A stretch of DNA of 22,014 bases from contig DAHVAE010000001.1 in assembly GCA_027314795.1 (NCBI GenBank), positions 1 through 22,014 of the forward strand, written 5' to 3'. The DNA is from Candidatus Saccharimonadota bacterium. Lineage in GTDB: Bacteria; Patescibacteriota; Saccharimonadia; Saccharimonadales; UBA4665. The translations under genes were made by a program, and so were the position numbers. The number at the start of each line of letters is the position of its first letter. The first letter of the stretch is position 1. Of this stretch, positions 14,613-22,014 are shown piece by piece. The notes under the pieces were generated by a model that searched no databases, was not told the origin of the DNA, and worked only from the letters and a program-made list of their open reading frames with translations.

Positions 14613-15029
14613 ATGGATCTTGATCAAAACTCGGATACTGAAGTAAATTCAGCCGCTCCAAAGCGGGTTCTGCTTGTCGAAGATGACGACTCGCTAGCAA
14701 ATGTATACATCACTCGTTTACAAGCTGAAGGGCTAGATGTCCGGAGAGTAAATAACGGTGAAGATGCCTTGGCTGCAGCTCTAAATTACCAGCCAAATCT
14801 AGTGGTACTTGATGTCATGATGCCTAAAGTCAGTGGTTTTGATGTACTAGATATCCTCAGAAACACACCAGAAACAGCCAACCTAAAGATTATTATGTTA
14901 ACTGCGTTAAGCCAGGATAGCGACAAAGAGAGAGCCGAGACATTGGGCGTAGATGAATATCTTGTTAAGTCTCAGGTTGTAATAGCTGACGTCATCGAAC
15001 GCATTAAGCATCAGTTGAACATTGCTTAA
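14613..15029 (+). CDS. Single-domain response regulator (receiver only)
   Basis: A 138-residue protein with a 16-residue polar N-terminal extension and one receiver domain, with no output domain. All phosphorylation residues are present: acidic pocket Asp24/Asp25 (LLVEDDDS), phosphoacceptor Asp67 (VVLDVMMPKVSGFD), Thr97 (IIMLTAL) and Lys119 (EYLVKS). The usual K-P after the lysine is K-S. It is expected to be a CheY/Spo0F-like phosphorylated switch or phosphorelay intermediate that acts by protein contacts. No intact histidine kinase is nearby; the only kinase-like gene in the window (20642-21358) lacks its His. The 3' end is 5 bp from the convergent rpmA gene. Confidence 0.9.
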   Translation: MDLDQNSDTEVNSAAPKRVLLVEDDDSLANVYITRLQAEGLDVRRVNNGEDALAAALNYQPNLVVLDVMMPKVSGFDVLDILRNTPETANLKIIMLTALSQDSDKERAETLGVDEYLVKSQVVIADVIERIKHQLNIA

Positions 15030-19480: not shown

Positions 19481-19879
19481 ATGGACGATCAAAATCAAAA
19501 CAATCAACAACCATTAAACGACGCTCAACAGGGAGATAGTCAGTTAAATCCTGTATCAGGATTGAGTGATAACCCTGCTGGTGTGCCAGCTACTCCTAGC
19601 AGCGACGCTACTAGCGATCAAAGTAGTCTAAATGTTGGTGGGCTTAGCTCAGAACCAAGCGCTGCTCCGGAGGTAACGCCTCCTGAACCTGTAGCGCCTT
19701 CTGCTAGTGAACCTGCTGTTAGCGTAATGCCAGAAGCAGATGCCCAATCGCCAGCAACTCCAACTAGCTCTATGGAAGACAGCCCAACTGTTACAGAGAC
19801 TAGTGAGCCATCTAGTAGCGATTCTTCAGAATCAGATGGTGGTTCATCAGCTGGTCCACTGGGATCAAGCTCAGTTTAA
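19481..19879 (+). CDS. Unrecognised acidic, low-complexity (disordered) protein
   Basis: A 132-residue protein made almost wholly of Ser, Pro, Glu, Asp, Gln, Ala and Thr, with no Lys or Arg, no Cys, no aromatic residues and no membrane segment. It starts Asn/Gln-rich (MDDQNQNNQQPLNDAQQGD), turns Pro/Glu-rich (PEVTPPEPVAPSASEP) and ends Ser-rich (SSSDSSESDGGSSAGPLGSSSV). It is expected to be intrinsically disordered and strongly negatively charged. No family is recognised and no export signal is seen. It sits between the FAM173-like gene and a membrane-anchored protein gene 35 bp downstream, each with its own putative promoter. Real coding is supported by an ATG with a promoter-like region upstream and by an uninterrupted frame with consistent composition; function is unknown. 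Confidence 0.6.
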   Translation: MDDQNQNNQQPLNDAQQGDSQLNPVSGLSDNPAGVPATPSSDATSDQSSLNVGGLSSEPSAAPEVTPPEPVAPSASEPAVSVMPEADAQSPATPTSSMEDSPTVTETSEPSSSDSSESDGGSSAGPLGSSSV

Positions 19880-19914: not shown

Positions 19915-20580
19915 ATGAAGCTTAACCAGCATGGAGCAATAAGCGCCGTTACTCTTGGCTTAGTAGCAGTAACAATAGTACTAATTGCCAGCTTAGTGTT
20001 CGGTTTTTGGGCATTTTCTGGGAGACAAAAATATAAAGACAACACCCAGCAGCTAATTAATTCAGCTGTGGCAAGCGCTAAGCAACAACAGCTCAGTGCA
20101 GACACGGCTAACTTCTTCGTGCAGGCTCAAAAGCCACTTACAGAATATGTCGGGCCTCAGACGCAAGGGACAATAACCTTGTTTTATCCCAAGAACTGGA
20201 GTTCTTATGTAGATACATCTGGAACTAACGGCTACCCACTAGACGGATATTTTTATCCAGCTACGCTACCTTCAGTAAACGATAATGGTCAAACTAATTT
20301 CGCCCTTAGGCTTCAAGTAGAAAACCAACCCTATACAACGGTACTGCAGAATTTTGAAGGTTTAGTTCAACAGAATCTAGTGACAATTAAAGCCTATTCT
20401 TTGCCTAAGTTACCTAGCGTTGTCGGCGTGGAAGTGGTCGGACAGTTAAAAAGTAGTGTTAAAGGTACTTTAGTAATCTTACCGCTTAGAAGTGCCGCTC
20501 TAGAGGTCTGGACAGAAGGAACAGCCTATCTTAGTGAGTTCAATAGTGACATTTTACCTAATTTAAGCTTCTCGCCATAA
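19915..20580 (+). CDS. Membrane-anchored extracytoplasmic protein of unknown function
   Basis: A 221-residue protein beginning MKLNQHGAISAVTLGLVA, a short basic N terminus and one hydrophobic helix (about 10-34), then GRQKYKDNTQQLINSAVASAKQQQ, a helical linker, and a globular part of about 150 residues outside the membrane. The QHG followed by a long hydrophobic run recalls a prepilin-type or class III signal, but the residue five positions after the Gly is not the usual Glu, so this is uncertain. The ectodomain has strand-like segments (GTITLFYPKNWSSYVD, TNFALRLQVENQPY, VVGVEVVGQLKSSVKGTLVILPL). YPKNWSSYVD resembles the 'P-x-x-W' opening of small secreted beta domains. I do not recognise the family. 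It has its own promoter. Confidence 0.7.
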   Translation: MKLNQHGAISAVTLGLVAVTIVLIASLVFGFWAFSGRQKYKDNTQQLINSAVASAKQQQLSADTANFFVQAQKPLTEYVGPQTQGTITLFYPKNWSSYVDTSGTNGYPLDGYFYPATLPSVNDNGQTNFALRLQVENQPYTTVLQNFEGLVQQNLVTIKAYSLPKLPSVVGVEVVGQLKSSVKGTLVILPLRSAALEVWTEGTAYLSEFNSDILPNLSFSP

Positions 20581-20641: not shown

Positions 20642-21358
20642 ATGGATAAATTAGATGATGCAGATTATACTGCGTCTTCATATTTGTTAATGGTGAATCT
20701 TGCCGAGCAACTTAAGCTACCTTTTATGCAAATCCAAAAGCAGGCAGAGTTATTGTCTCGGGTAAAAGTCAAAGACCTATCATCAATTGAAAACTCGGCC
20801 AGTTATGCTTTGCAGCTTATAGATAACTATCTTCTTGGGTTAAAGTTGAATCAACAAAAACTGGCATTAGAACAGGAACCGGTGTCGGTTGCTGCCGTAC
20901 TTTATGATAGCGGGCAGTTACTTAGCAGCTTAGCTAAGGAATACGGCGTTAAATTAGAACTTAATATAACAGGTAAATATGAGCCGGTTATGGCCCATAG
21001 ACAAGGGCTGGAATCAGCAATTGTTAGCCTTGGTTCATCACTAATTGAAGCCATAAGTGCCCAAGATAAGTCTAAATATACTTTGCAGTTAGCTACACAT
21101 CGGTGTAGGTATGGCATAGTAGCAGGTGTTTACGCAGATAACCCAGAGCTTACAGCTAACTTATTAAGGCAGGGCAGGAGGTTAATAGGGCGAGCCAGGC
21201 AGCCCTTAGTTAATTTAACTTATTCGGCAGGTGCAGGCATTTTTGTGGCCGACAGCATTCTTAATGCTATGAGCTTAAGCCTAAAGGCTTCTAGACATCA
21301 CCGGCTATATGGTCTTGGAGCGGTAATGAGGGGTAGTAGCCAACTACAATTAGTCTAA
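20642..21358 (+). CDS. Degenerate histidine kinase-like protein (no phosphoacceptor His)
   Basis: A 238-residue soluble protein laid out like the DHp plus ATPase core of a histidine kinase. The helix LAEQLKLPFMQIQKQAELL (20-38) aligns with the H-box pattern SHELRTPLTAI, but the phosphoacceptor His is Glu22. The second DHp helix (about 47-72) includes SASYALQLIDNYL. The ATPase-like part has ESAIVSLGSSLIEA (124-137), where the N-box Asn is Ser133, no DxGxG box (VYADNP instead), and GAGIFVADSILNAMSL as a worn G2 box. Autophosphorylation is therefore unlikely; it may be a scaffold or sensor. There is no membrane segment or PAS domain. It is followed after 1 bp by an equally degenerate receiver gene, suggesting that the two proteins work together. 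The assignment rests on motif spacing alone. Confidence 0.65.
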   Translation: MDKLDDADYTASSYLLMVNLAEQLKLPFMQIQKQAELLSRVKVKDLSSIENSASYALQLIDNYLLGLKLNQQKLALEQEPVSVAAVLYDSGQLLSSLAKEYGVKLELNITGKYEPVMAHRQGLESAIVSLGSSLIEAISAQDKSKYTLQLATHRCRYGIVAGVYADNPELTANLLRQGRRLIGRARQPLVNLTYSAGAGIFVADSILNAMSLSLKASRHHRLYGLGAVMRGSSQLQLV

Positions 21359-21359
21359 G

Positions 21360-21743
21360 ATGAGCCAAGTATTACTGATTGAGCCGGATAAGCCACTTGC
21401 CAAAACCTACCAGGCAGCTTTAAGAAAGGCTGGGCATAAAGTTAAGCTTGCTTCAACATCACAGGGCGCAATAAATAAAGCCGACGCTCAAACTCCTGAA
21501 GTTATCGTACTCGAGCTGCAGCTAGTCGGACATTCAGGGATTGAATTTCTTTACGAGTTTAGGTCATACCCAGAGTGGCAAGATGTGCCGGTACTCATTC
21601 ATACTGGCGTGCCATATATCGAGCTTAAGGACAGTTGGGACTTACTCAGTGATCACTTAGGGGTGTCTGATTATACATATAAGCCAGATACAAGCTTAGA
21701 TAAGCTTATAAATAGCGTTCGTCAACTAACTAGGTCTAAGTGA
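21360..21743 (+). CDS. Degenerate response-regulator receiver domain (Asp to Glu)
   Basis: A 127-residue stand-alone receiver. The fold signature is clear: LLIEPDK (5-11) for the first strand, VIVLELQLVGHSGIEFL (48-64), PVLIHTGV (77-84) and DYTYKPD (104-110). The Thr (82) and Lys-Pro (108-109) of the switch are kept. The phosphoacceptor Asp is replaced by Glu52 (codon GAG), and the acidic pocket is Glu8/Pro9/Asp10 instead of two adjacent acids. Asp to Glu often mimics the phosphorylated state, so it could be locked on; this is inference. There is no output domain. Its TGA stop overlaps the GTG start of recO (GTGA), so recO is translationally coupled to this pair. Confidence 0.8.
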   Translation: MSQVLLIEPDKPLAKTYQAALRKAGHKVKLASTSQGAINKADAQTPEVIVLELQLVGHSGIEFLYEFRSYPEWQDVPVLIHTGVPYIELKDSWDLLSDHLGVSDYTYKPDTSLDKLINSVRQLTRSK

Positions 21744-22014
21744 ATAAGAAGACTACTAAGGCAATAGTCTTAAAAAGACTCAACTATGGGGATAGTGATC
21801 GTATCATTACTATCTTAACGCCCGAGTTCGGCAAGCTAAGCTTGCTTGCTCAAGGTGTCAGAAAAGTTAAGTCAAAACTTGCTGGCGGCATTGAATTATT
21901 TTCAGTGTTTGACGCTGGTTTCATTACTGGCAGGGGTGAAGTTGGTAGGCTAACATCAGCTCGACTAGATGAGTTTTATGGCAATATCATAAATGATATA
22001 ACTCGAGTTCAATT
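21740..22014 (+). CDS. recO: DNA repair protein RecO, N-terminal part (runs off the window)
   Basis: The first 91 codons of a frame that is open to the right edge. It begins MNKKTTKAIVLKRLNYGDSD and continues RIITILTPEFGKLSLLAQGVRKVKSKLAGGIELFSVFDAGF, which is the RecO OB-fold N terminus (KAIVL+RxYGExDRLLTLFTPExGKL...ARGxR+xKSxLAG). RecO loads RecA onto SSB-coated single-stranded DNA together with RecR and anneals complementary strands. The start is a GTG overlapping the upstream TGA by 3 nt. The zinc-binding and helical C-terminal part is outside the window, so this is a window-edge truncation, not a broken gene. Confidence 0.9.
   Translation, partial: MNKKTTKAIVLKRLNYGDSDRIITILTPEFGKLSLLAQGVRKVKSKLAGGIELFSVFDAGFITGRGEVGRLTSARLDEFYGNIINDITRVQ

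Follow-up and report, generated by a model that had tools for sequence, protein, structure and literature searches.

A two-component gene pair of Saccharibacteria whose kinase and receiver have both lost the residues for phosphotransfer

Among two-component proteins, pseudokinases and aspartate-less receivers are each known singly. DivL of Caulobacter crescentus (PDB 4q20), which has a Tyr at the His site, is a kinase relative that works by binding. FrzS, HP1043 and ChxR, the last with Glu in place of the Asp, have receiver folds without a phosphoacceptor Asp; Glu replacement and a proposed locked conformation are features shared with the receiver described here. RcsD-type proteins carry a transmitter-like part without a phosphoacceptor His. 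Here we describe an adjacent gene pair that unites both kinds of change, located in a 22,014-nucleotide stretch of contig DAHVAE010000001.1 from a Candidatus Saccharimonadota bacterium (the window, meaning that whole stretch). The first gene encodes a histidine kinase-like protein with Glu22 at the H-box His position, and the second a receiver with Glu52 at the phosphoacceptor Asp position (Table 1). DivL-type pseudokinases and aspartate-less receivers come closest to it in their mode of working. Conversion and retention of both halves of one operonic pair seems to set this locus apart from the systems just named. Whereas the receiver bound by DivL is intact and gets its phosphate elsewhere, the adjoining receiver here has also lost its site, and the window kinase, unlike DivL, has no sensor region within the protein. 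ChxR, FrzS and HP1043 are DNA-binding or multi-domain regulators or orphan proteins, whereas the window receiver is a single domain encoded with its own pseudokinase. RcsD carries an active HPt domain, of which the window pair has none, and the NCBIfam RcsD model matched at E 8e-4 with 17.4 bits against a cut-off of 634.

The pair belongs to the receiver fold family and to the fold made of a two-helix dimerization and histidine-phosphotransfer (DHp) domain and an alpha/beta sandwich catalytic and ATP-binding (CA) domain, but falls outside canonical HisKA/HATPase_c kinases and functional receivers because the defining residues are absent. The sequence-only reading of the locus had named Glu22, a Ser at the N-box and Glu52, and all three replacements are present at the codon level; it had also allowed that the first protein might lack a DHp/ATPase fold, and that fold was found with confidence. 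Using hhalign, a profile of 44 Glu-type kinases set against the intact orthologue at locus L085 places 'slAEqLKlPL' over 'giAHeLKTPL', and the same H-box register was obtained against a CpxA sequence from PDB. The idea that the open reading frame (ORF) is unrelated to kinases and that the match of Glu22 to the H-box His is an artefact of alignment, which could appeal to Pfam giving nothing for the window protein except HisKA (PF00512) at E 0.13, is already contradicted and has a negligible probability. The kinase lacks the phosphoacceptor His of HisKA and also the N-box Asn and G1 Asp-x-Gly of HATPase_c (PF02518), in place of which it has Ser133, Ala165 and Asn167; the loss of the G1 motif had been missed before. 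Most homologues without the H-box His (hereafter non-His rows) have other residues at the N-box Asn and the G1 Asp-x-Gly, while the G2-box glycine at position 199 is kept in 89 of 99 of them. The window kinase is unable to carry phosphate at the usual site, and it very probably fails to bind ATP normally. The top-scoring PDB sequence for the Glu-type profile was 4biz, a CpxA chain with Glu at the H-box position; it is perhaps an engineered variant, and its structure could be usable as a model of a Glu-type DHp domain.

The profile searches proposed in the sequence-only reading divided between the two proteins. The receiver scored above the Pfam cut-off for Response_reg (PF00072; E 7.7e-10, 39.4 bits against 30.2), a model matched at 0.01 by all 51 aligned receiver relatives, whereas HisKA remained below its own on the kinase (12.8 bits against 26.9) and was matched at 0.01 by only 5 of 55 kinase relatives. 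A functional receiver has a phosphoacceptor Asp and two metal-binding acids. The window receiver has Glu52 and, at position 9, a metal-binding acid in canonical receivers, a Pro, a second receiver loss that had likewise gone unnoticed. It retains E8, D10, T82 and K108 of the pocket, as do most non-His rows (E8 134/137, D10 127/137, S/T82 132/137, K108 131/137). It has the features of an atypical, aspartate-less receiver: a receiver fold, no phosphoacceptor Asp, and conservation in relatives. Besides lacking Asp at site 52, it has an impaired metal site. Three residues of the beta3/alpha3 face vary much less among non-His rows than among His rows, the latter being mostly from family group f34: His58 occurs in 82 of 95 against 7 of 34 rows, Tyr70 in 94 of 95 against 19 of 34, and Trp73 in 85 of 95 against 2 of 34.

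Losses in the two proteins go together. Kinase-receiver pairs were deduplicated by identical kinase C-terminus, which reduced 266 to 183; three rows with gaps were dropped for the four-position count, two rows without a kinase N-terminus were dropped from the tables of kinase site 22 against the receiver acids, and L088, still present in an earlier tally, was left out of these counts because its kinase and receiver are strays not of this locus. The sample is uneven, with 60 of the 137 non-His rows coming from f1, the family of the window. At His22, Asn133, acid 9 and Asp52, 41 of 180 pairs keep all four residues, 121 lose all four and 18 are mixed. Sites 22 and 52 read Glu/Glu in 102 of the 183 pairs, His/Asp in 43 and otherwise in 38. 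Acid 9 accompanies His in 42 rows and is missing beside it in two (L086 with Gly9, L170 with Pro9), and among the 137 kinases without His none is paired with a receiver that keeps it. The corresponding counts for Asp52 are 43 His/Asp, one His/non-Asp, 123 non-His/non-Asp and 13 non-His/Asp. Replacements at both sites are not random: among the 137 non-His rows, site 22 is Glu in 107 and Asp in 13, and site 52 is Glu in 117 and Asp in 13. The expectation that E22 and E52 would be conserved thus holds as a rule but not invariantly. In the non-His set Glu22 ranks 46th of 236 kinase columns, and Glu52 and position 9 rank 23rd and 19th of 126 receiver columns; all three are conserved, though not the most conserved sites. 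In L174, L311, L333 and L351, Glu52 is itself replaced (Ala, Ser, Ala and Asn, respectively), which may represent a further step of change; three of these rows (L174, L333 and L351) share a single genus, g60, in family f1.

The locus is widespread. Of 60 genomes, 57 contain a kinase-like homologue, the genome of the window among them, and all 60 have a receiver match of some kind; the kinase alignment was matched by 390 of the 392 genomes of the order, paralogous kinases included. Because both searches also catch paralogues, we relied on loci read one by one. Among 34 family groups read, many of them represented by one or two genomes, 25 had only the non-His state, seven only His (f3, f15, f23, f25, f26, f35 and f39 of an outgroup order) and two both (f34, with 34 His rows and two not; f36, with one His row and 11 not); of the 27 groups in which a non-His state occurs, 20 have Glu22. 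Loss is therefore typical of families, not of all genomes. A close relative from the same genus (L002, 73% identical) is Glu/Glu, and His/Asp was read only in other families. A recent strain mutation, which the sequence-only reading had offered as a way for its case to fail should close homologues carry His and Asp, is ruled out on these grounds.

The intact state occurs in f34 and the seven His-only groups (L219 in f35, L216 in the outgroup order). These orthologues align over their full length with the window pair and have the same gene order and partners where they could be read; they differ in having His22, Asn133, acid 9 and Asp52, as 41 rows do. The shared order shows that the window pair goes back to an ordinary two-component system in which both partners lost their phosphochemistry, and the intact His/Asp state is most simply taken as ancestral. 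Intact orthologues at the same place in sister families offer a natural before-and-after series for a switch from phosphorelay to binding, and the mixed rows (L170, L185, L207 and group f36) bear on which residue goes first. For annotation, the consequence is that two-component counts in these small genomes include a pair that is unable to transfer phosphate by the usual route.

We placed these states on a tree of the upstream protein and RecO (147 rows, 462 columns, quick search), in which 42 of 144 inner branches are starred, the outgroup rows do not group together and some branches are long, such as L226, L224, L216 and L219; for L214-L226 the states came from a motif search and, L226 (which has no kinase) aside, were later reread by alignment. 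The large non-His clade is a single starred branch (96) of 98 rows that includes the His-bearing L170. Within f34, L185 and L207 represent isolated losses, whereas L074 and L087 have no firm place and branch from an open fork outside the large clade. The fewest changes on the tree are six for His, seven for Asp52 and six for acid 9; most losses go back to one clade, and independent events are few. In the independent-pairs test the second trait changed the same way in 2.0 (Asp52) and 2.8 (acid 9) pairs on average and the opposite way in 0.1 and 0.0, with median p of 0.5 and 0.25. L185 has Arg22 and Pro9 and keeps Asn133 and Asp52; L207 has Gln22, Ser9 and Ser52 and keeps Asn133. From these two cases, a thin basis, the N-box appears to be lost later than His and acid 9, and L185 and L207 are candidate early intermediates. 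Group f36 is nested inside the Glu clade and is mostly Asp/Asp with acid 9 lost; in L161-L169, six of ten non-His rows are Asp/Asp, with Thr, Ser, Ala or Pro in place of acid 9. A coupled change from Glu/Glu to Asp/Asp in f36 is possible.

Both genes are under purifying selection. The ratios of nonsynonymous to synonymous substitution rates (dN/dS) of the kinase in seven distinct non-His pairs (five Glu/Glu, one Tyr/Glu and one Asp/Asp, taken from 20 rows, many of which repeat one genome under two loci) are 0.031, 0.047, 0.057, 0.079, 0.084, 0.115 and 0.122; recO gives 0.121, 0.036, 0.063, 0.091, none, 0.353 and 0.135 for the same pairs in order. The pseudokinase value is the lower in five of six pairs. 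Kinase dN/dS is 0.238 in the His pair L198/L214 and 0.300 in L183/L185, a mixed pair. All values were estimated by the Nei-Gojobori method, several with dS above 1, and are rough enough to be readable only as strong constraint. We also considered that the pair is decaying and owes its conservation to recent common ancestry, a view that could point to further degeneration in L174, L311, L333 and L351 and to the three genomes of 60 with no kinase match (G027, 59% complete; G033; G054). The listed kinase matches, however, contain no internal stops, kinase dN/dS stays at 0.03-0.12, the pocket residues are conserved, and the non-His state spans 27 family groups. Low dN/dS, open frames and conservation led us to reject decay, which we regard as very improbable. 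That the loss is not the decay of one gene, as the sequence-only reading had argued, agrees with a change that affects both genes, is old, spans many families and is kept by selection.

On the observed folds, replaced residues, joint losses, gene order and purifying selection, we consider it moderately probable that the pair is a phosphorylation-independent module, its receiver locked by Glu52, that derives from an ordinary two-component system and is under strong selection. In the window's lineage, an ordinary two-component operon of the Saccharibacteria class gave up phosphotransfer on both sides, while strong selection preserved the two folds and the two genes. The DHp/CA protein would have become a non-catalytic, probably dimeric, receiver-binding scaffold. 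Glu52 may pair with Lys108 and lock the receiver into a single, probably active-like conformation, while Pro9 would leave a pocket that no longer binds Mg2+ normally. A signal, which probably originates in the upstream coiled-coil membrane protein, would be passed on by changed binding partners instead of phosphate, and the output may run through the conserved beta3/alpha3 face of the receiver (HSGIEFLYEFRSYxEW). That both proteins lost their chemistry and both genes were retained is consistent with the two still working together. More tentatively, and with somewhat less than even chances in our estimate, a whole two-component system may have become a phosphate-free relay in which fixed acidic residues at the two former phosphosites (Glu/Glu, mostly Asp/Asp in one family) replace phosphate, coupled to a PsbP-like surface sensor and standard in most Saccharibacteria family groups read.

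Several observations weigh against a locked, phosphate-free module. Family f34, the largest in the order search, is intact in 34 of 36 rows read, and L170 has His22 although the rest is degenerate. On the tree there are at least six to seven changes and four supported independent pairs, and the sign test is not significant. Glu does not always mimic phospho-Asp, and it is not essential at site 52, where Asp, Asn, Ala and Ser also occur; site 22 can also be Asp, Gln, Asn, Tyr, Leu, Lys, Ser, Gly, Arg or Val. Group f36 mostly has Asp52, with acid 9 lost, so that phosphorylation there may in principle occur. Kinase-receiver covariation gave no direct evidence of binding, and its His/Asp positive control failed too: of the top 50 pairs, 4 fell in DHp x interface for Glu/Glu (4.4 expected), 11 for all non-His (4.4) and 6 for His/Asp (4.3), with interface columns chosen after HK853-RR468 and an alignment depth that gives no power. 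The excess in the non-His set may be clade signal, since it also occurs outside the interface (18 against 10.6 expected).

That covariation between the proteins cannot be demonstrated is compatible with another reading, in which the two no longer cooperate and each was repurposed apart after signal loss, the receiver for example to bind partners on its own and the kinase to join a different complex, with adjacency simply inherited. The gene order with recO is older than the loss, so linkage alone proves no interaction. We nevertheless think separate repurposing unlikely, given that losses on both sides coincide in the main clade and that joint losses recur in two isolated rows of an otherwise intact family, namely L185, where Asp52 is kept, and L207. 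Less likely still is that one half remains enzymatic, either because the receiver is acted on by a different kinase of the cell or by a small-molecule phosphodonor, or because the kinase-like protein has altered nucleotide binding. Such a role would find eight intact kinases and nine intact receivers read in the same genome, Asp52 in most f36 receivers and the persistent G2-box glycine in its favor, but Glu-type pairs have no phosphoacceptor and no full metal site, and the N-box and G1 residues are replaced in most rows.

Table 1. Coordinates of the pair, its key codons and the flanking genes in the window
Feature	Position	Strand	Description
Upstream membrane protein	19915..20580	+	Single transmembrane helix continuing as a long coiled coil, followed by a PsbP/Mog1-like beta domain
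Pseudo-histidine kinase	20642..21358	+	238 aa, DHp and CA domains; no transmembrane helix or sensor domain of its own
Kinase codon 22	20705..20707	+	GAG (Glu) at H-box His position
Kinase codon 133	21038..21040	+	TCA (Ser) at N-box Asn position
Pseudo-receiver	21360..21743	+	127 aa, single domain, no output domain
Receiver codon 9	21384..21386	+	CCG (Pro) against metal-binding Asp of canonical receivers
Receiver codon 52	21513..21515	+	GAG (Glu) at phosphoacceptor Asp position
Receiver codon 108	21681..21683	+	Conserved pocket Lys, kept
recO (start only, runs off the window)	21740..22014	+	Pfam RecO_N E 6.5e-20

The locus runs in the order PsbP-like membrane protein, kinase, receiver and recO. 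As the sequence-only reading had described them, the kinase-like and receiver ORFs are intact and tightly linked, with a gap of 1 nt; within the sequence GTGA, the recO start codon (GTG, 21740) and the stop codon of the receiver gene (TGA, 21741-21743) overlap. The window's genome is not losing phosphosignaling in general, since its other nine Response_reg matches (ten receivers in total) all have Asp at positions 52 and 9 and its eight other readable kinases all have the H-box His; a ninth HATPase_c match, L097, gave no kinase alignment. A canonical single-domain receiver lies in the window at 14613-15029, between the genes for CTP synthase and ribosomal protein L27, with no adjacent partner kinase within the window. 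The suggestion that it might interact with the pair was not borne out. A close orthologue is among the matches listed for 36 of the 40 genomes searched, the window's own included, with 63-87% identity outside that genome; all 40 match at E 1e-30, of which G010, G039 and G044 do so only through a more distant receiver (54-57%), and G023 has only a distant receiver plus an end-of-contig fragment. Since the close orthologue is also present in G037 and G049, whose pair is His/Asp, it does not track the loss and has no special tie to the pair.

The extracytoplasmic domain of the upstream membrane protein has a PsbP/Mog1-like fold, and the protein is a candidate sensor of the module. It was found in 39 of 41 genomes of f34 and in 33 of 286 genomes drawn phylum-wide, 24 of the 33 within the same class, and is a cleaner marker than kinase or receiver searches. 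No such kinase or receiver stands beside the upstream gene at six loci outside the class (L225, L227-L231), at L223 of the same class or at L220 of f34, and L226, also of the same class, has an intact receiver and recO beside it but no kinase. At L006, L112, L114 and L122, all of one genus (g2), the upstream gene was not found beside the kinase in a gene-order count made without 40 later-added loci, and the gene for the putative sensor may be absent there or lie elsewhere. Immediately before the upstream gene, the window has a short Ser/Pro/Glu-rich low-complexity ORF (19481-19879) with no Pfam match. A promoter and terminator scan returned five promoter-like sites against 4.6 expected and three terminator-like sites against 1.7 expected, and was therefore uninformative. 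In two f34 genomes the upstream PsbP-like gene occurs as a tandem pair (L224 / G135:C7:4118-5525 and G361:C36:7906-9224).
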